Shown here piece after piece: positions 2,808 to 39,813 of a DNA stretch of 39,813 nt; positions within the stretch are counted from its first letter, which is position 1; each line of letters begins with the position of its first letter. The stretch lies in assembly GCA_023136835.1 (NCBI GenBank), contig JAGLQN010000002.1, positions 1 through 39,813 on the forward strand, in the 5' to 3' direction. The notes below the pieces were generated by a model that saw only the letters and a program-made list of their open reading frames with translations, had not been told where the DNA came from and made no database searches. Position numbers and translations under genes: made by a program. The stretch is from Candidatus Omnitrophota bacterium. GTDB lineage: Bacteria; Omnitrophota; Gorgyraeia; Zapsychrales; Zapsychraceae.

Positions 2808-3287
2808 TTATTTACCGTCGATATGAACGATATTTATTTCTTTAGCGTCTTGATTTTCACCCTCAAAAACCTTTAAGGCGTCGGCGCTTTCCTTCTTTAC
2901 TTCCGACAACGTTTTTAGCCCGATCCGGTCCGCTACTTCCTTTATGCTTTCGGCCTTCATATCGGTTATGGCCTTTTCGTTCGGCACGGATTCACCGCAC
3001 CAACCCGTAGATCGTACAACCGGCCATATCGCGCGGTTATAAAGATACCCCGGCGGCTTTACAGAACCATCATCGTCATATTCCGTAGCGGCGGGCGCAC
3101 GTCTTTTACACAACCCTAACAGATTGTTTTCTGCCGGTTCGCCGTCATAAAAAGCGCATTCCCCACACGGCCAGATTTGATGCCTTAAATAGTCAAAGTC
3201 TTCGGGCGCATGTTCACCCTTCTTGACCTCGATCACCCCCGGCAGATCATCACCGGTTACACCTTCACCTATTTTTTCTTGACACAT
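2808..3287 (-). CDS. Small cysteine-motif (zinc-binding) phage protein
   Basis: 159 aa, acidic. It has C41-x2-C44, C60 and C97 in the pattern 'CGECAFYDGE ... LGLCKRRAP ... WPVVRSTGWCGE'. This spacing, with a tryptophan-proline before the last cysteine pair region, recurs in short phage and bacterial proteins of unknown role and suggests one zinc or iron-sulfur site. The C-terminal third is Lys/Glu-rich and helical. Start chosen at ATG 3287 because AGGGGG lies 7 nt upstream; an upstream in-frame TTG has no ribosome site. Its neighbours are the Spo11-like gene and the FtsK-gamma-like gene, so a DNA-related role is possible but not shown. Confidence 0.7.
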   Translation of the reverse strand: MCQEKIGEGVTGDDLPGVIEVKKGEHAPEDFDYLRHQIWPCGECAFYDGEPAENNLLGLCKRRAPAATEYDDDGSVKPPGYLYNRAIWPVVRSTGWCGESVPNEKAITDMKAESIKEVADRIGLKTLSEVKKESADALKVFEGENQDAKEINIVHIDGK

Positions 3288-3309
3288 AAAATTACCCCCT
3301 TTATTAATA

Positions 3310-4212
3310 TTATTCAACCAACGGGCGTATTTCGTCCCATTCTTGATATACTCTACTTAACATATCCTTCATTTCTCTTTCTTCTACTACTACTGCATCC
3401 CAGACCTCTTTATTAATATACTTATTGACCTCTCGTTTAATTTTAGATTCTAATATCGCCGGGTCAAGCGCGTCAAGCTCCCACGAAGTATATCCAAACC
3501 TTTTAATATATTCTTGAGCGCGGCTATCTGATATTTTTGTGGGGTTTGGTGGCGGTTGATATTCTTCCACCTGGTCCATATTAAGAGCAAGCCTTATTAC
3601 TTCTACCTCTTCCGGAAAACCCGTAAAAATATTTAGACGGTCGATATTGTCCCTTGTCATATCTATACCAGATGGGTCATGGTCTCCCAGGTGGATAAGT
3701 ATACACCTTTTACCCCCTACTATCTTGTTTCTAAAGCGCCGCCCCGACCGCCAAGCCTCCGAAGCTGACAAGTAACCCTTACAGGCCATGTGCGGTATTA
3801 GAAAAGGTTTACAGGCCCTTGATACAACATTTCCAAGCGCTTCTTTTTCAACCCAAACCTCAATGTAATATTCTTGACGCGCCCACCTATCAAAACGAAT
3901 GTAATCCGGGAGATCTTTTATAGGGCTTAACTCGTCCTCATCATACCAATATCCATGATGTTGCCGGTTACGATCTTCAATAGACGACCATGAGAGCATA
4001 CCGGACATGCGGGCTTTTGTAATAATTCGCCCCAGGTTCTTATAGCTCCTTTCTGAATTTGCGATTATACCCCTTGCAACAAACTGATAATAAAGCTGGC
4101 GGACCGTTAATATATATCCGGCCGTATCATATTCGCTAATTATGTCGTCGGCTTGATCTATTAAATCACGCGTTTTTTCTTTCGGCGACCATTCTATAAA
4201 TTTTTGCTTCAT
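3310..4212 (-). CDS. Spo11/topoisomerase VI subunit A-like protein
   Basis: 300 aa. The N-terminal part carries 'TVRQLYYQF' (36-44), matching the catalytic R-x3-Y-Y motif of the Spo11/TopoVI-A winged-helix domain (candidate tyrosines Y41/Y42). A TOPRIM domain follows, with the glutamate motif 'VWVEKEAL' (E122), a 'CKGYLSASEAWRS' segment as in TopoVI-A, and the metal-binding 'LGDHDPSGIDM' (D177, D179). Both halves needed for tyrosine-mediated DNA cleavage therefore appear intact. No TopoVI-B-like GHKL ATPase is encoded in this genome. Free-standing A-like proteins ('Mini-A') are known from mobile elements, with no settled function. GGGAGGG precedes ATG 4212. Cotranscribed with the PP-loop ATPase upstream. 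Confidence 0.8.
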   Translation of the reverse strand: MKQKFIEWSPKEKTRDLIDQADDIISEYDTAGYILTVRQLYYQFVARGIIANSERSYKNLGRIITKARMSGMLSWSSIEDRNRQHHGYWYDEDELSPIKDLPDYIRFDRWARQEYYIEVWVEKEALGNVVSRACKPFLIPHMACKGYLSASEAWRSGRRFRNKIVGGKRCILIHLGDHDPSGIDMTRDNIDRLNIFTGFPEEVEVIRLALNMDQVEEYQPPPNPTKISDSRAQEYIKRFGYTSWELDALDPAILESKIKREVNKYINKEVWDAVVVEEREMKDMLSRVYQEWDEIRPLVE

Positions 4213-4229: not shown

Positions 4230-5036
4230 TTATTCACACACACCCAGACCTGCATAGGCGCAAATAGTACTTTCTTGTTTTATCGTTCCTAACTCCATTT
4301 GACCGTCAAGCGTTTTTAGCGCCCAGGCTACATGCTGGTCAATGGTCCACACGATCGCCTCACCGGTGATCTTGTTAAATTTACGCCGTGGCAAATAAGA
4401 CAGGCCGGTTTGCTTCTCAACCTCTCTAATTTCGGCGATACGATCCGGGTAGTGCCGCGCTAATACTATCAACTCATTACGCCCGGCATTGACACACGGG
4501 AAGCAACCAACGCGTTTTAAGCCCTTCTTATAAAGCGGGTTTATATCGATCCTATATTTTTTATGTATTGCAAAAACTTCCGCGGCGGACCAGGTGATTA
4601 TCGGATTCCATAGTGGCCGCCCGTAGGTGCTTTTGTCTTCATGTTCTTTTCGTTTACTTCTTGCCTTTGATTCGGCCGCGCGTATCCCGGTTATTATGGT
4701 GCAATCATCAGCATAGGGTTGTTCTTCAAGCCACCGCAAAAACGGCACGATCTTTAACCACTCTGTACAAAAGCGCGCCTTCATTGACGGGAACCGCTTC
4801 TTCTTTATAGCCAACGAAAAAAAATCATATTCACCCTTCAACTTTATTACTTCCGTACCGGTCCACCCATTCAACAAACCCGATATATAATCAATATAAG
4901 CATAAGTATCCTTTGATTCGTTGCCGGTATCCTGGAACGTAACAATGGGTACAATGTTCTTTTCCTTAATCAAATATAGCAATGTCGCGGTGCTATCTTT
5001 GCCGCCGCTAAAACAAAGCACGTATTGATGTTTCAA
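4230..5036 (-). CDS. PP-loop ATPase, PAPS reductase/DndC-like
   Basis: 268 aa. It begins with the PP-loop 'LCFSGGKDST' (SGGKDS 10-15), which binds and adenylates or pyrophosphorylates substrates in the adenine nucleotide alpha-hydrolase superfamily. It continues with 'RFCTEWLK' (88-95, C90), 'GIRAAESKAR' (117-126) and 'RVGCFPC' (C178, C181), the arrangement of PAPS reductase-like and DndC-like proteins. Free PAPS reduction is unlikely in a phage. Sulfur activation or nucleotide modification is a possible role by analogy with DndC phosphorothioation, but DndD/DndE partners are not seen. The start is TTG 5036, with AGGGGG about 6 nt upstream. It sits between a radical SAM gene pair and a Spo11-like gene. 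Confidence 0.8.
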   Translation of the reverse strand: MKHQYVLCFSGGKDSTATLLYLIKEKNIVPIVTFQDTGNESKDTYAYIDYISGLLNGWTGTEVIKLKGEYDFFSLAIKKKRFPSMKARFCTEWLKIVPFLRWLEEQPYADDCTIITGIRAAESKARSKRKEHEDKSTYGRPLWNPIITWSAAEVFAIHKKYRIDINPLYKKGLKRVGCFPCVNAGRNELIVLARHYPDRIAEIREVEKQTGLSYLPRRKFNKITGEAIVWTIDQHVAWALKTLDGQMELGTIKQESTICAYAGLGVCE

Positions 5037-5045
5037 ATTAGCCCC

Positions 5046-5402
5046 CTAAAAAAAACTTAATTGACCGCCGGTGTGTATAATTATTTCGTCGTCATTATTG
5101 CCAAAAAGCTTTAATATCCTACCGTCAACGGCCACCAGTTCACTAAAACAACTATCGGTGTCAAAGTCCAGGTACATAGCCCCCAAACTATATGTTTTAT
5201 GCCCCATAACTTCATATTCCCCGATAGAAATAACCCTGTGCAACCGATCACTATAGCTAGTACTTATTATAGCCCCGGGACCTATCAACCCGGCAACGTC
5301 CGCCTGGTCTTCCGGGGTTTGTCTAAATATCATTCCCGGCGGAATCGGATAACCCAATTCGTGTTGACATGAATTATGCGCGTATTGTTTCCAGGCGCCC
5401 AT
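5046..5402 (-). CDS. Hypothetical protein between radical SAM and PP-loop genes
   Basis: 118 aa, no family recognised. The sequence is predicted mostly beta, with a hydrophobic core, two cysteines in the N-terminal half and C-terminal half ('NSCQHELG', 'DSCFSEL'), and an acidic 'GNNDDEIIIHTGG' near the end. Start chosen at ATG 5402 because it overlaps the TGA of the upstream gene and follows a run of seven G (positions 5409-5415). Translational coupling to the radical SAM gene suggests a shared task, possibly as a small subunit, which is inference. Confidence 0.7.
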   Translation of the reverse strand: MGAWKQYAHNSCQHELGYPIPPGMIFRQTPEDQADVAGLIGPGAIISTSYSDRLHRVISIGEYEVMGHKTYSLGAMYLDFDTDSCFSELVAVDGRILKLFGNNDDEIIIHTGGQLSFF

Positions 5403-6415
5403 CAAACGACCCCCCCGGCCTTCTTGTAGCCCCACACGTCATTTAATATTTTCAAGCGCTTTTGAAGGGTATCATCACGTAACCCGCGCTTAATCAGGAA
5501 TTCTTTAAACGTCATTTTTTTAAAAAACGACGGTTGATTGCACCAAGCGGCTAGGTCCGCATAAAAGCCTTTCTTTGTCGATTGATAACAATTATCATCA
5601 CGCATTAAATAAGGTAGGCATTTGTTTTTCTTGCACCAAGCTATCCTGGGGATCACGTCGGTTGACAGGTCCATTTCAGCGCTACAATAAATATAAAACC
5701 TAATATATATCGATTTAATGTATTTCAACAATATATCAAGCTTATCGTTAAGGACCTGCGCGCTTGATATGTTATCAAAGGCGAAAGTATAGGGCTTGAT
5801 ATAGTGTTTAATCCGCGACAATAGCCTTGCGTTCTCATCATCAACCAATCTAATATCTAGCCCCTGGCTAAATGAACATTTTATTTTCTTATCAATAAGG
5901 CGTTGCAATATTGCTTTATGATCTCGATATGCCAGAATATTATTGTCCAAAAATTCAACCCGGTCATGTTCTATTATTGAATCAAGATCGGTTTCTTTAT
6001 AAATGCGGCCCTCTTTTTCCGGCACGATACAAAACCCACAATTTCGTATACACCCCCGGGTAATAAACCCGTAAGACGTCCGGTTTTCCGGATAAATGCT
6101 GTAGTCCGGCGGGCAACAATCTATTTCCGGCGGCAACTTCTTTTTTATATCGTAACCCGATCCGCCGATATCAACATGATCACAACTCACGACCTTAATA
6201 ATGTCCCGGTTACATCTAAATATTACAGAAACAAACACCTTGTCATATTTCGCGGCGGTGATCGTTTTCCTACCCTTGCGCCCCCGGTTGTATCCGCTAA
6301 AACCAAACCGCCATAGGGTTATATTATGCCCGCGGTCCCGGTAATAAGTTGATATTTTCATGAGCGCTAAGTTTGGTATTTTACTATCCGCGTCTATTAA
6401 TAATATATTATCCAT
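5402..6415 (-). CDS. Radical SAM enzyme
   Basis: 337 aa. The N-terminal 70 residues have a B12-binding-like alpha/beta pattern ('ILLIDAD', 'ALMKISTYYRDRGHNITL') but lack the DxHxxG cobalamin motif. 'IGGSGYD' (83-89) and 'PDYSIYP' precede the radical SAM cluster motif C122-x3-C126-x2-C129 ('RGCIRNCGFCIVPEKEG'), which would hold a [4Fe-4S] cluster and cleave S-adenosylmethionine. This layout is seen in a recurrent group of phage and bacterial radical SAM proteins whose substrate is not known. The start at ATG 6415 follows AAAGG and avoids overlap with the gene before. It is translationally coupled to the next gene and followed by the PP-loop ATPase. Confidence 0.85.
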   Translation of the reverse strand: MDNILLIDADSKIPNLALMKISTYYRDRGHNITLWRFGFSGYNRGRKGRKTITAAKYDKVFVSVIFRCNRDIIKVVSCDHVDIGGSGYDIKKKLPPEIDCCPPDYSIYPENRTSYGFITRGCIRNCGFCIVPEKEGRIYKETDLDSIIEHDRVEFLDNNILAYRDHKAILQRLIDKKIKCSFSQGLDIRLVDDENARLLSRIKHYIKPYTFAFDNISSAQVLNDKLDILLKYIKSIYIRFYIYCSAEMDLSTDVIPRIAWCKKNKCLPYLMRDDNCYQSTKKGFYADLAAWCNQPSFFKKMTFKEFLIKRGLRDDTLQKRLKILNDVWGYKKAGGVV

Positions 6416-6425
6416 TTTCAACCTT

Positions 6426-6644
6426 TTATTGTCTTTGCCATGCGGCATAGGCGCTATCATAATCACCAAAATAAGGCGTACCAGGTGGGATCACATTGCC
6501 CACGGTTTTAAAAGTTCTACCTATCGCCCACCTGGTCACCCGGCAATCGATACGAACCCAATAGATCAACCCTACGCCTTTAAGTCTTTTAAAGTCTAAT
6601 ACGGTCCGTACCGTGTACGCCTTATTTGTGAATCTTGCGGCCAA
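6426..6644 (-). CDS. Small basic hypothetical protein
   Basis: 72 aa, no family recognised. It is basic and aromatic-rich, with a hydrophobic centre and a 'PPGTPYFGDYDSA' C-terminal part. The only start with a good ribosome site is TTG 6644, preceded by GGGGG at about 5 nt. It lies tightly between the primase-helicase stop (6654) and the radical SAM start (6415). Real coding is supported by packing and ribosome site rather than by similarity. Confidence 0.55.
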   Translation of the reverse strand: MAARFTNKAYTVRTVLDFKRLKGVGLIYWVRIDCRVTRWAIGRTFKTVGNVIPPGTPYFGDYDSAYAAWQRQ

Positions 6645-6653
6645 TATAACCCC

Positions 6654-9548
6654 CTATCCCCACCCCGGGTTGTCGTCGTCTTCTTCGTCAGGGTCCGGCA
6701 TCTCCATTACGTTAAAATAATCCGGGTGCGTCCGTTCAAGTTCGCGTAAGAATTTAACAAACTTAGGTTGTTTTTGATAGCCATTTTTCCCGGATCGTAT
6801 CAAGTGATATTTCTTTAAAAAGCTAACCACCTTTTTGATCGTATCAAGCCCACAACCGACAAAATCCTTTAAATCATCACGCTTTATACTGGTACTAATT
6901 CGTAGATGATAAATCGTTTTAACAAAGAAGTTGCCCCTGTTTTTTTCTATTCCGGTCTTGCGCTTCTTCATAAATGCGGTTTCCAGTTCTTCAAAATTAA
7001 GCAGGTGGGTTTTAAGCTTGACGATCTCGGAATACTTATCTAATGACGCCGATTGGTGGCGATAAATACACCCGATAAAATCAATCGCGGCCTCAACATG
7101 TTCCTTTTTTACTGTCACCGTTTCAAAGTTTTCCGTTGACATAACTATAAAAGCAAGCGCGGTTGATATGCGCGCCAAATTATATCGAAAATCGGACGGG
7201 GCTACCAAAGGAATATCAACGGCGTTACCGAATTCCTTACTTAATATTAGCGCCTGGCTTAAACAATATTCCTCTGCTTCCGGATCAAAAAATATTTGAT
7301 CTTCGGTGCGGGTCCAGGCAAAGAAGACGGCCGAACGTAGCATTGAAGGGGTTATTTTTGGCAATTTTGTATTTTTTCGGTTCATCACGCTATAATCCAT
7401 CATATCACCGGAATTAGCGAAAACGGCAAAGTCAACGCGCCTTAATATTGTCGGCGGGTAGATCGTCTTTAGCGTTTCGCAACCATACATACATTCGTCC
7501 ATCACCCGATCGTATTTAGGGTTACACATCATCAACAATCTGGTCATAGAATCATAGCCCCGGGATTTCACCCGGTCAATTTGCATAAACCCTTCGTCCA
7601 TAGCTTTACTAATAGATTGAAGGTCGAATTCTTGAAGGTGTTGAACCTCGTCAACCGCTAAAAGCTTCCCTGAATTCGCCGGATAGCGTCCTATTTTTAT
7701 CTGCCAGCCGCCGCGCCGGTGATCCTCAACTAAAGCGTATGAAAGGCCCGTGCGGGACCCGGTAAGGCACGAAAAGAAGTCACCGGCCCCGATATAATCT
7801 GATATACGGTTATAGGTCTGCGTCTTACCTAGTCCACTATCGCCTATTATTATCGATAGAATCCAACCGCGGATTCGGTTCTTGTTAAAGTTTATCCATA
7901 GCGGCGAAAAGAACGTAAGAAGGACCGCCATTAATAATTCGTCGCGTTCATATATATTAGTGACGCCGTTTGTTAGGTCCTCGATAATTTCCGGTAAAGA
8001 AAATTTTTGATAGGCTTTAAGGTGTTCAATTTCCTTTGTTACATCAAAAGATTGATAGTCGTCTTCTTGCGGTATAAGGGTTTCAATTAAAAAGGTGATA
8101 GCTTGCGTTTTCGGGTGCGCTTTCGCGTAACCGGTAGCCAAATACGAACCAGGCGGCGCGTCATTAGATGATATATAATAACATTTCTTTTCAACTAATT
8201 CCTGCATTTTGCCGCCGGATTTTGACCGCTTAATAGTTTGGTGTGCAAAGAATTCCTGGACCGTTACCCGGCGCGTTATTTTTATTGTCGGCTTTTTATC
8301 AAATTTGCAACAATATGATCTTAACATTCCGACGACCTGGGGATTCGTTGACATGCACGATCCGATATATTCTTGCTCTGATATCGGGATTGTGATAGGC
8401 CGGATACACCTAGAACATTTGCTATCCTCACGGGTCTTGCAATGGTCAACCTCAAACTCGGATACCGCATAAAATGAATCGGACGTTTCCCCGGACACGA
8501 CGATTTCGCATTGTATTCTTTGATCGACGTGTTTATGGTCCTCGATCTCAACAAAGGATTCTAGTACCGTGATCGGGTCGGTGGACCCTTCAAGCTCATA
8601 CTCGTAAGCGTGTACCGGCGTTTCGTCTATAAGGGTCCTTAAATCTTTAGCAGTAAAGCCGTGTGCGTGGAAATAATCGGTTATATCGTTGTCTTTTGAA
8701 GTGCCTTCAAGCGGCAACAATATATTCTTTATTGATCGCACGCCGCTATTTTCAAACATCGGCAACAAAAGCCCTTTAGCGGCTACCTGGCCGCCGTCGT
8801 CACAATCTTGCAATATAACCACGTCTTTACCCTTAAAAAAGCGGACCCATTCCGCCAAGAAGCTTTTACAGCCGTTTGTTGTCGTGACAGCCATAAAACC
8901 GTTTTGTTGCAATAGAAGACGGTCAAATTCACCCTCACAAATAATAACTTCATGTTCTTTATATTTTACTAGTTCGTCAAGCCCATAAAGGCGCGCCGGT
9001 GATCCATAAGTATAATCTTTACCCTTAACCCTTTGATTATAGGGCATCATTTTCCAGCGGCCTTTCTTTGCGTTGTATCGGCGTATGTTTACTAGTTTGC
9101 CGTTTTCGTCGCGAATCGGAATTGTATTACGGCCGCCCGGTAGGTCCGGGTCCCAACCTATCTCATATTGCTTGATTGTGTCGATAGTCAAACCGCGCTT
9201 TTCATATAAATATTGTACCGCCTGGTCGTTTAATTGTTCTGTACATTTTTTCACGTAACCCTCGGGTATCGGCGGCTTTGCCGGTTCCGCGGGCGCGGCC
9301 TTCTTCTTTGCCTTCTTCGCGGGCGTCTTCTTTTTTGATTCTTTATTACGATCCGCGGCCGCCGGGTCGTACAGCTCAAGAAATTGTTGATAATTGCCTT
9401 TGCCGCATTGAGAAAAACACACCCAGGCGCCCGTTTCAGGGTCGTATGAAAAAGAAGGGCTTTTATCGTCGTGAATCGGGCAACACCCTTTTATCCAGCC
9501 GTTTGTGTCTCTTGATTCTTTATGTAATTTAGGAAAATCATAGCTCAT
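6654..9548 (-). CDS. DnaG-type primase fused to MCM-like AAA+ helicase
   Basis: 964 aa. A CHC2-type zinc finger ('CCPIHDDKSPSF', C23, H26, C44, C48) is followed by a Lys/Ala/Pro linker (70-95), a primase core and TOPRIM domain ('ICEGEFD' E206; 'LQDCDDGG' D248/D250), a cysteine-bearing insert (370-415), then an AAA+ domain. That domain has Walker A 'GDSGLGKTQ' (569-577), Walker B 'LLAVDE' (629-634), sensor 1 N676 in 'MMCNPKYD', arginine finger in 'ILRRVDF' (R703/R704) and an 'FRYNLARISTALAF' lid helix (787-800). 'LTGSRTGLSYAL' and 'AMDEGFMQIDR' match MCM-specific stretches rather than DnaB/gp4. A winged helix ends the protein (about 870-935). It should prime and unwind phage DNA. GGAG precedes ATG 9548. 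Confidence 0.85.
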   Translation of the reverse strand: MSYDFPKLHKESRDTNGWIKGCCPIHDDKSPSFSYDPETGAWVCFSQCGKGNYQQFLELYDPAAADRNKESKKKTPAKKAKKKAAPAEPAKPPIPEGYVKKCTEQLNDQAVQYLYEKRGLTIDTIKQYEIGWDPDLPGGRNTIPIRDENGKLVNIRRYNAKKGRWKMMPYNQRVKGKDYTYGSPARLYGLDELVKYKEHEVIICEGEFDRLLLQQNGFMAVTTTNGCKSFLAEWVRFFKGKDVVILQDCDDGGQVAAKGLLLPMFENSGVRSIKNILLPLEGTSKDNDITDYFHAHGFTAKDLRTLIDETPVHAYEYELEGSTDPITVLESFVEIEDHKHVDQRIQCEIVVSGETSDSFYAVSEFEVDHCKTREDSKCSRCIRPITIPISEQEYIGSCMSTNPQVVGMLRSYCCKFDKKPTIKITRRVTVQEFFAHQTIKRSKSGGKMQELVEKKCYYISSNDAPPGSYLATGYAKAHPKTQAITFLIETLIPQEDDYQSFDVTKEIEHLKAYQKFSLPEIIEDLTNGVTNIYERDELLMAVLLTFFSPLWINFNKNRIRGWILSIIIGDSGLGKTQTYNRISDYIGAGDFFSCLTGSRTGLSYALVEDHRRGGWQIKIGRYPANSGKLLAVDEVQHLQEFDLQSISKAMDEGFMQIDRVKSRGYDSMTRLLMMCNPKYDRVMDECMYGCETLKTIYPPTILRRVDFAVFANSGDMMDYSVMNRKNTKLPKITPSMLRSAVFFAWTRTEDQIFFDPEAEEYCLSQALILSKEFGNAVDIPLVAPSDFRYNLARISTALAFIVMSTENFETVTVKKEHVEAAIDFIGCIYRHQSASLDKYSEIVKLKTHLLNFEELETAFMKKRKTGIEKNRGNFFVKTIYHLRISTSIKRDDLKDFVGCGLDTIKKVVSFLKKYHLIRSGKNGYQKQPKFVKFLRELERTHPDYFNVMEMPDPDEEDDDNPGWG

Positions 9549-12074: not shown

Positions 12075-12923
12075 TTATAGCCTTCTTGACGTTGGTTTAT
12101 CGCCCGGTTCCGAGGCGCCGAATTCTTGACCGTATTCTAGCTTAAATTTATCTTTACTAGATAATATTTCACCCGGATATTGCATAAATATTTCACCGCG
12201 TAAAACGTTGCCGCCCTTCTTAGGTCCACGGCCGCCCACTTGCTTAAAGAAAAACGGTATTTTCTGTGCTTCGCAAAAGGCCCGGATTTTATCGGCCCAA
12301 ATTGGTTGCATGGCCCGCGGATTGTTGCCGGATTCTCCGCCCGCTATTACCCAACCTATATGGTCGTTTATTAAAGAAAAGAAACGCACCTGTTCATTAT
12401 ATCTAGTTTTTGTTTTATATCGATCCCCGAAAATATCCTCTAATAAAGGTTCAAACGATATATATTTCATATTAGCATCAACACAATGCGCTAATAATTC
12501 TACCCGGGAAGCATATTTAAGGGCTTCAACGCTCACACCGGCCCAAAGATTAGCGGTCCACAACAACTTGTCGTTTAAAGCCGCCATGCGTTCCGGGCGC
12601 TTAGTCAACACCTGAAAGGTATGTTGCGGGCATTTATTCATTACCGTGAAAACCTCAAACATAAACTCGTCCGGGACGTCCGGGTGAAATAAATCAGACA
12701 TTGAGTTTACAAACACCCGGCGCGGCTTCAACCACGTATAAGGCGCCTTTAATCGCTTCGGGTGACACTTCACCTTAAAACCTTTTTCGTATCCCGGGAT
12801 ACCCCGCTTTTGAAATTTAAGCGCGATAGGTTCCGCGTAGCAATTATTACAGCCCGCGGAATATTTAGTACACCCGGTTACCGGGTTCCACGTTTCATCG
12901 GTCCAGCCAATTTTAGTTGTCAT
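12075..12923 (-). CDS. DUF5131 (phage Gp37/Gp68) radical-SAM-like protein
   Basis: 282 aa. The signature 'IGWTDETWNPVTGC' opens the protein, followed by C18-x6-C25-x2-C28 ('GCTKYSAGCNNCYAE'), a cysteine motif that would hold a [4Fe-4S] cluster. Further conserved stretches are 'VFVNSMSDLFHP', 'QVLTKRPERM', 'WAGVSVE', 'ISFEPLL' and 'WVIAGGESG'. These identify the DUF5131/Gp37-Gp68 family, common in phages and plasmids, with a TIM-barrel radical-SAM-like build and unproven substrate. GAGGG precedes ATG 12923. With the gene at 5402-6415 this makes two radical-SAM-type proteins in one early operon. Confidence 0.88.
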   Translation of the reverse strand: MTTKIGWTDETWNPVTGCTKYSAGCNNCYAEPIALKFQKRGIPGYEKGFKVKCHPKRLKAPYTWLKPRRVFVNSMSDLFHPDVPDEFMFEVFTVMNKCPQHTFQVLTKRPERMAALNDKLLWTANLWAGVSVEALKYASRVELLAHCVDANMKYISFEPLLEDIFGDRYKTKTRYNEQVRFFSLINDHIGWVIAGGESGNNPRAMQPIWADKIRAFCEAQKIPFFFKQVGGRGPKKGGNVLRGEIFMQYPGEILSSKDKFKLEYGQEFGASEPGDKPTSRRL

Positions 12924-13765: not shown

Positions 13766-14218
13766 TTATCCATACAAACAATCTTTCCCGTTAAGGTGAT
13801 CCATTTCGTGTTGAATTATCCTAGCTTCAAGCCCCCTAAACACCTTTCTGCAAGTTTTGCCTTTACAGTTCTGCCATTGCAACAATACGGAATCGCACCG
13901 GCCACGGATTTTTTCAACACCCGGGCGGCTTAAACAACCCTCGTTATCTTTAACTATCGTGGTGCTTTTTTTAAGGATCACCGGGTTAATAAATTCGCGG
14001 CGACGCTTTTCACCTTTCATAACAAAAATGCGATACGCGATATCGATTTGAACACCGGCAAGTCCTACGCCGGTTTCGTGCGCGTCTAAGGAGTCCCATA
14101 GGTCCTCAAGGATATAATCCAGGTAAACATCACTATTAAAATCAAACTTGACCGACGCTTTAGCGAGTGCCTTTGATCCTTCCGAATCTTCGTATTGTAC
14201 TATTTGACGGATTGCCAT
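13766..14218 (-). CDS. def: Peptide deformylase
   Basis: 150 aa, shorter than most bacterial enzymes (about 165-190) and like phage forms that lack the C-terminal helix. All three metalloprotease motifs are present: motif 1 'GVGLAGVQ' (50-57; the usual AA is AG here), motif 2 'EGCLS' (93-97, metal ligand C95) and motif 3 'QHEMDH' (136-141, ligands H137 and H141, catalytic E138). It removes the formyl group from nascent N-terminal methionine; phage versions are thought to speed maturation of phage-made proteins. It is the first gene of the early unit. The start is ATG 14218, with GGGAGGG 9 nt upstream. Confidence 0.93.
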   Translation of the reverse strand: MAIRQIVQYEDSEGSKALAKASVKFDFNSDVYLDYILEDLWDSLDAHETGVGLAGVQIDIAYRIFVMKGEKRRREFINPVILKKSTTIVKDNEGCLSRPGVEKIRGRCDSVLLQWQNCKGKTCRKVFRGLEARIIQHEMDHLNGKDCLYG

Positions 14219-14261
14219 TGGTTGTATCCCTCCCGAAAAGGTTAATATGTTATATCTAACT

Positions 14262-14283
14262 TTATATATAACATTATATATAA
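14262..14283. promoter_or_regulatory. Tandem TTATATATAA palindromes (candidate operator)
   Basis: Two identical 10-bp perfect palindromes, 14262-14271 and 14274-14283, are separated by 2 bp, giving a 12-bp period on one DNA face. They occupy the spacer and -10 region of the promoter at 14263-14292. A looser GTTA-N12-TAAC inverted repeat follows at 14241-14260. The placement suits a dimeric repressor blocking RNA polymerase; the small HTH protein at 10903-11103 is a candidate ligand. AT-rich melting DNA alone could explain part of the pattern. Confidence 0.5.
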
Positions 14284-14292
14284 CGGTGTCAA
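14263..14292 (-). promoter_or_regulatory. Early-operon sigma70-type promoter
   Basis: Perfect -35 TTGACA (minus strand, 14292-14287), followed by TATATA at either 16 or 18 bp spacing. It lies directly downstream of the late terminator (14303-14333) and about 45 to 70 bases ahead of the deformylase start. No other comparable promoter is seen between here and 1780, so it probably drives the whole early unit. Confidence 0.7.
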
Positions 14293-14302
14293 GAAATAAA
14301 AT

Positions 14303-14333
14303 AAAAAAAGGGCAACTTTTTTCAAAGCCGCCC
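14303..14333 (-). terminator. Intrinsic terminator of the late operon
   Basis: On the minus strand a 10-bp stem (GGGCGGCTTT / AAAGTTGCCC with two G-T pairs) closed by a GAAA tetraloop (14310-14333) is followed by seven T (14309-14303). It lies 29 bases beyond the stop of the last structural gene and immediately before the early promoter, so it insulates early from late transcription. Confidence 0.92.
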
Positions 14334-14361
14334 ATTTAATCTCATAAACTTTTGGAGGAAG

Positions 14362-39801: not shown

Positions 39802-39813
39802 CTACTTTGTGCC
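39802..39813. repeat. 12-bp terminal direct repeat, right copy
   Basis: Identical to bases 1-12. See the left copy. Its inner flank, tcggg, supplies the left arm of the dyad that appears when the two ends are joined. Confidence 0.6.

Follow-up and report, generated by a model that had tools for sequence, protein, structure and literature searches.

Closest Described Systems

Mini-A is a viral type IIB topoisomerase-like subfamily attributed to Takahashi et al. (2020) in later accounts of that work (PMC8185306, PMC7614492, and PMC11302465). The reviews mentioning these proteins give no known function for them, and Mini-A biochemistry was not found in the literature searched. Members such as those of Pseudomonas phage NP1 and the archaeal virus HCIV-1 are short, virus encoded, and devoid of a B subunit.

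The best-studied relatives are the A subunits of topoisomerase VI (Topo VI-A) of archaea and plants. In the Methanosarcina mazei enzyme (Top6A), Y106 is the catalytic tyrosine, E202, D254, and D256 form the metal triad, and R102 and E342 form an "electrostatic clasp" that restrains cleavage; the E342Q exchange strongly raises the tendency of Topo VI to cleave DNA (PMC13040014). An N-terminal latch comprising residues 44 to 67 is needed for supercoil relaxation, which is abolished by its mutation (PMC13040014). The eukaryotic Spo11 protein has the same fold and active-site set. Mouse SPO11 cuts DNA without a B-like partner: it dimerizes to form hybrid active sites, remains linked to the 5' ends, is able to reseal nicks, and uses the second tyrosine of its pair, Y138, for catalysis (PMC11922746). 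Action without an ATPase is thus possible in principle for this group. In vivo, Spo11 is the meiotic double-strand-break enzyme and works with Rec102/Rec104 or TOP6BL, in contrast to the phage-borne Mini-A, for which no B-like partner is detected.

Topo VIII enzymes resemble Mini-A in being type IIB and encoded by mobile elements, but they have a B part: a GHKL B part is either joined to the A part in one polypeptide or specified by an accompanying gene, whereas the protein described below is a single A-type polypeptide of 300 residues. Topo VIII has been described as close to Mini-A (PMC8185306). The nucleases JetD/MksG (Wadjet) and GajA (Gabija) share with Mini-A a Top6A-related, DNA-bending TOPRIM fold (PMC13040014). 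These enzymes act in defense operons with motor partners, in contrast to Mini-A.

The Mini-A Gene and Its Genome

The window, that is, the whole stretch of DNA analyzed, comprises the 39,813 nucleotides of contig JAGLQN010000002.1 from an assembly binned as a Candidatus Omnitrophota bacterium (GCA_023136835.1). The gene under study is as follows:

3310 to 4212, minus strand: Mini-A, Top6A/Spo11-like protein of 300 amino acids (phrog_6247, AlphaFold2 model, and PDB fold matches); 5Y-CAP/winged-helix domain at about residues 1 to 80, TOPRIM domain at about residues 115 to 250, then C-terminal helices

The open reading frame starts with ATG, and a GGAGGG ribosome-binding-like site lies just 5' of the start codon. 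An earlier reading of the DNA, made from the letters alone (here, the sequence-only reading), had placed the gene correctly in coordinates and motifs; the strand had to be set to minus.

The contig is a tailed-phage genome with genes for a small terminase, a lambda-gpA-type large terminase, a portal protein, a major head protein, and a tape-measure protein. Identical 12-base termini (CTACTTTGTGCC) occupy positions 1 to 12 and 39802 to 39813 and adjoin the small and large terminase genes. The contig probably represents an entire linear phage genome whose 12-nucleotide cohesive ends were filled in during library preparation. The window contains no tRNA or Rfam RNA; it also encodes a DUF5131 radical-SAM-like protein of the mobile pair protein A type (12075 to 12923, minus strand) and a phage peptide deformylase (13766 to 14335, minus strand). 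The binned genome holds no second Mini-A copy, and none of 54 genomes of bacterial relatives of the binned host carries the gene, which indicates that it travels with the virus.

Family Membership and Distribution

The protein is a further member of the described viral Mini-A family. It matches phrog_6247 ("DNA topoisomerase") from end to end (E = 5.8e-101) and shows 39.3% identity over residues 1 to 294 with the homologue from Pseudomonas phage NP1 (KX129925.1, 41172 to 42050; E = 1e-60). This full-length homology establishes the assignment, as the NP1 protein has been published as a Mini-A example (PMC7614492, Fig. 4). The protein had at first seemed peculiar, an impression that did not hold, and nothing places it outside the Mini-A family.

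The closest relatives found belong to environmental phages (L001, L024, and L025) and are ∼61 to 63% identical. Relatives occur in 76 phage records from many genera, some of which annotate the homologue just as "DNA binding protein". A scan of viral contigs confirmed at least 579 Mini-A relatives (579 of 600 among the pattern matches listed), and Mini-A was confirmed at 126 places in bacterial or archaeal genome contigs. The archaeal virus HCIV-1 encodes a distant member with full-length homology at 23% identity (L185, 7989 to 9020). In a quick family tree, most forks have little support and the window protein has no firm placement; no deep branching order is claimed, since the branches of the HCIV-1 and Cellulophaga sequences are saturated.

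Some copies are damaged or divided. The Mini-A copy of Marinobacterium jannaschii (L104, 10001 to 10903) contains an in-frame stop codon that splits it, as would a prophage in decay, and in Roseobacter phage RDJL Phi 1 the gene lies in two pieces.

Fold and Remote Homology

The sequence-only reading had identified the protein as Spo11/Topo VI-A-like, which structure prediction bears out. An AlphaFold2 model built from 111 family members has a mean pLDDT of 92.3. The top two hits in the PDB are chains from the cleavage-state structure of M. mazei Topo VI (E = 6.6e-5, probability 1.00), and the alignment spans both domains; the fold is thus that of Topo VI-A and not of another TOPRIM family lacking the 5Y-CAP domain. 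An earlier model, built from 19 sequences, had four Topo VI-A chains and one Spo11 chain (8urq) as its five best PDB matches. Whole-chain TM-scores are modest (0.27 to 0.49), as would be expected if the inter-domain hinge differs.

The homology of Mini-A to Top6A is visible by structure only, since PDB sequence searches gave no real match: the single protein returned only chance matches to acetyltransferases, and a 19-row profile returned none. At the profile level (HH), a comparison of the family with 25 Top6A sequences from archaea, a set too uniform for the purpose (Neff 1.8), was not significant; its sole aligned block (Prob 1.9) pairs the tyrosine motifs of the two families. The window protein matches no Pfam family at E ≤ 0.1, TP6A_N included, in which it differs from Topo VI-A. 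A search of the binned genome with PF04406 (TP6A_N) likewise gave no match.

In one archaeal class, PF04406 is present in 40 of 41 genomes. A Methanimicrococcus bin of this class (L180) has a Mini-A contig and no PF04406 match, which probably reflects incompleteness of the bin.

Active Site and Predicted Electrostatic Clasp

The motifs named in the sequence-only reading are present exactly as described: T36-V-R38-Q-L-Y41-Y42-Q-F, E122 (in VEKEA), and D177 and D179 (in GDHDPSG). The same motif scan in Methanosarcina-type Top6A recovers R102, Y106, E202, D254, D256, and E342 in M. mazei numbering. The corresponding codons, all on the minus strand, are as follows:

4087 to 4089: Y42, predicted catalytic tyrosine (equivalent to M. 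mazei Top6A Y106 and mouse SPO11 Y138), from conservation
4099 to 4101: R38, predicted clasp arginine (equivalent to Top6A R102), from the four-residue spacing to the catalytic tyrosine as in Top6A
3847 to 3849: E122, TOPRIM metal-binding glutamate (equivalent to Top6A E202), from conservation and motif scan
3676 to 3684: D177-H178-D179, TOPRIM DxD (equivalent to Top6A D254/D256), from conservation and motif scan
3478 to 3480: E245 in WELDAL, predicted clasp glutamate (equivalent to Top6A E342), from motif correspondence

In a family alignment of 164 distinct rows, R38, Y42, E122, K123, D177, and D179 do not vary, a constancy that places the motifs far beyond chance. The choice between Y41 and Y42 had been left open; far from being poorly conserved, Y42 is invariant, being kept in all 164 rows and in seven of seven distant phages. 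Y41 is replaced by phenylalanine in five of the 164 rows and by histidine or alanine in distant phages. Y42, not Y41, is likely the nucleophile, judging from this pattern. The HCIV-1 protein has asparagine in place of the second TOPRIM aspartate (D179); in yeast Spo11, the equivalent aspartate is not essential (PMC11922746).

The block from W244 to L249 (WELDAL) is constant in 164 of 164 rows, and its E245 is also kept in all seven distant phages. This family-specific motif stands where Top6A has KAEQQAF, in which E342 is located according to the PDB sequence of the E342Q mutant; the TOPRIM motif GDHDPSG likewise takes the place of the Top6A motif TDGDPWS. The pairing of E245 with E342 follows from motif and order rather than from a residue-level superposition, and an R38/E245 clasp equivalent to that of Topo VI, with a similar function, appears to be conserved in Mini-A. 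The catalytic tyrosine, the TOPRIM E/D/D residues, and the arginine-glutamate clasp would then be common to Mini-A and Topo VI-A.

This conservation bears on two other explanations. Mini-A might have lost catalysis and serve only to bind DNA in a structural or regulatory role, as could be read from its sole annotation in some phages; with all catalytic and clasp residues constant across 164 diverse rows, this is extremely improbable. Mini-A might also be a nuclease that degrades host DNA or excludes superinfecting phages by TOPRIM hydrolysis. Host DNA degradation is known for phages, and the JetD/MksG/GajA enzymes provide examples with a Top6A-like TOPRIM fold (PMC13040014). The absolutely conserved tyrosine and clasp arginine would, however, be needless for hydrolysis by a TOPRIM domain alone, and the window gene products scanned include neither an SMC-type JetABC partner nor a UvrD-like GajB partner. 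PADLOC assigned no family to the Mini-A protein, on which ground a role as a defense nuclease was rejected. Taken together, a nuclease of this kind is quite improbable.

Absence of a B Subunit and of the N-Terminal Latch

The intact active site occurs without a B subunit, as the sequence-only reading had proposed. A search of the contig for GHKL domains (PF02518) gave no candidate even with the threshold relaxed to E ≤ 10, although it picked up 15 such domains elsewhere in the binned genome; the Topo VI-B transducer (PF09239) was found nowhere in that genome. Across the family, a GHKL domain was found in 0 of 50 Mini-A virus records and the transducer in 0 of 48 records tested, with both archaeal controls positive; IMG/VR records can be fragmentary, and a transducer-only B-like partner (compare Rec102) is invisible to the HMMs used.

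Mini-A also lacks the ∼60-residue N-terminal latch region of Top6A. In Top6A, 105 residues precede Y106, whereas an upstream stop codon in the window limits the frame to at most 48 residues before Y42, and 142 of 161 Mini-A loci have no room for 105 residues ahead of the tyrosine. Because Top6A holoenzymes need the latch residues, the activity of Mini-A could be very weak or partner dependent. In the literature searched, a body that excludes the defining 2020 paper, no description was found of Mini-A as a family that has neither partner nor latch yet keeps the clasp.

A genuine topoisomerase could be assembled if a host GHKL protein (GyrB, ParE, or another) or an unrecognized phage protein served as the ATPase gate, and such an enzyme would pass strands, thereby relaxing or decatenating replicating phage DNA. 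The database name of the family, the retained clasp and religation chemistry, and the 15 GHKL domains of the binned genome fit this explanation, as does the ability of certain Topo VIII enzymes to relax DNA without ATP (PMC7614492). It is nevertheless unlikely, given that Topo VI-B is absent from both the binned genome and the virus records and that the missing N-terminal residues include the latch critical for relaxation (PMC13040014).

Gene Neighborhood

The genes around Mini-A, all on the minus strand, are as follows:

2808 to 3317: Cys-containing protein, downstream neighbor (no Pfam, PHROG, or PADLOC match)
4230 to 5036: PP-loop ATPase of the PAPS-reductase/SspD type (PF01507, E = 4e-25; phrog_424; PADLOC SspD, E = 8.6e-27)
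5402 to 6469: radical SAM protein with CxxxCxxC motif (phrog_9298, E = 2.8e-65)
6654 to 9548: CHC2-zinc-ribbon/TOPRIM primase fused to an MCM-like helicase (PF01807, PF00493, and phrog_47)

The primase-MCM-like fusion is a phage replication protein of unusual architecture and lies upstream of Mini-A. The PP-loop gene is directly upstream of Mini-A with a gap of 17 bases; its best scores are to SspD (phosphorothioation) in PADLOC and to PAPS reductases in NCBIfam, under every NCBIfam curated cutoff. Of the operon partners listed in the sequence-only reading, the PP-loop and radical SAM proteins were confirmed. The FtsK-gamma call on a membrane protein falls below threshold (15.2 bits against a cutoff of 30.6), and the supposed zinc protein is the Cys-containing protein without a family match.

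These neighbors had been taken to suggest that Mini-A senses or acts on modified DNA. An enzyme that is tied to DNA or nucleotide modification by the PP-loop ATPase and the radical SAM protein, and that cuts or senses modified DNA, would agree with the close, SspD/DndC-like PP-loop gene, with the 7-deazaguanine-pathway genes on the Mini-A stretch of phage NP1 and Cellulophaga phage phi3ST:2, and with a PAPS-reductase gene 1.3 kb upstream of Mini-A in Salmonella phage SPN19. Among 182 loci, however, homologues near Mini-A were found in only 5 for the PP-loop protein, 3 for the radical SAM protein, 3 for the membrane protein, and 0 for the Cys-containing protein. With such counts, conserved operon partners were dismissed as a general feature of Mini-A; the modified-DNA proposal is not borne out and is regarded as very doubtful.

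By raw counts, the commonest neighbor in the family is an SNF2 helicase, found in 27 of 165 loci, in all cases on the same strand and in 11 within 500 bases. Other common neighbors are a ResIII-type helicase, DnaB, DNA polymerase A, SSB, RecT, and the YqaJ and DUF2800 nucleases, and in named phages a DNA ligase, a RecA-like ATPase, a RecB-like exonuclease, a primase, and a polymerase. This setting, mostly related to replication and recombination, favors a role in one of these processes but is too variable to prove it. The earlier suggestion that the protein cuts DNA for such processes thus stands as plausible.

Single loci show further arrangements. In L024 (10906 to 12279), and likewise in L161, L167, L172, L173, and L179, the SNF2-family helicase gene follows Mini-A immediately downstream or with an overlap. 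In Elizabethkingia phage TCUEAP2, an AAA_23 protein is encoded near Mini-A. In L001 (4285 to 5349 and 5561 to 7732, plus strand), an Mre11-like phosphoesterase and a Rad50/SMC-like ATPase are encoded directly upstream of Mini-A; phmmer found no homologues of this pair in the other Mini-A loci, and an Mre11/Rad50 association confined to L001 was set aside as a family trait.

Proposed Mechanism and Biological Role

The best explanation of the evidence as a whole is that Mini-A acts on phage DNA as a stand-alone, self-sufficient homodimeric DNA transesterase of the Top6A/Spo11 type (probability of roughly 0.62). Mouse SPO11, which cuts alone as a dimer, indicates that an A-type subunit without a B subunit can suffice in principle, and by analogy Mini-A is probably self-sufficient. 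Two copies would come together where duplex DNA is bent or supercoiled, and each hybrid active site would combine Y42 of one subunit with the metal-bound E122, D177, and D179 of the other. The enzyme would break strands and stay covalently attached to the 5' ends, giving nicks or double-strand breaks with 2-nucleotide overhangs. The R38-E245 clasp may restrain the tyrosine on DNA that lacks a suitable bend; cutting would then normally be rare and rejoining possible. ATP-driven strand passage would be impossible without a B subunit.

Family, fold, active-site conservation, and the lack of a detectable B subunit are established by the data, whereas dimer formation, covalent cleavage, and the working of the clasp are inferred; the biological role is the least certain part of this proposal. 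Mini-A most likely acts on phage DNA during replication, where its nicks or breaks would provide substrates for recombination-dependent replication or relieve torsion through nicking and resealing. A more specific version is put forward only tentatively: Mini-A would be a viral "Spo11" reduced to a minimum and working without a partner. Under control of the clasp, the homodimer would introduce programmed nicks or double-strand breaks into phage DNA, with protein linked to the 5' ends, as the starting point of recombination-dependent replication, and nucleases of the SbcCD/Mre11-Rad50 type would clear away the covalent protein. L001, a close relative, has an Mre11/Rad50-like pair, and pairs of this kind take Spo11 off DNA ends in meiosis.

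As a relative of Top6A and Spo11, Mini-A is very widespread among viruses. The residue mapping makes cutting through Y42, and the question of whether loss of the R38-E245 clasp raises cutting as in Topo VI, directly testable in tractable phages, such as NP1, PaMx25, and chi-like phages. If Mini-A does cut through Y42, it would show what the partner-free form of these enzymes does, which would also bear on the way in which Spo11 came to function with a reduced B subunit.
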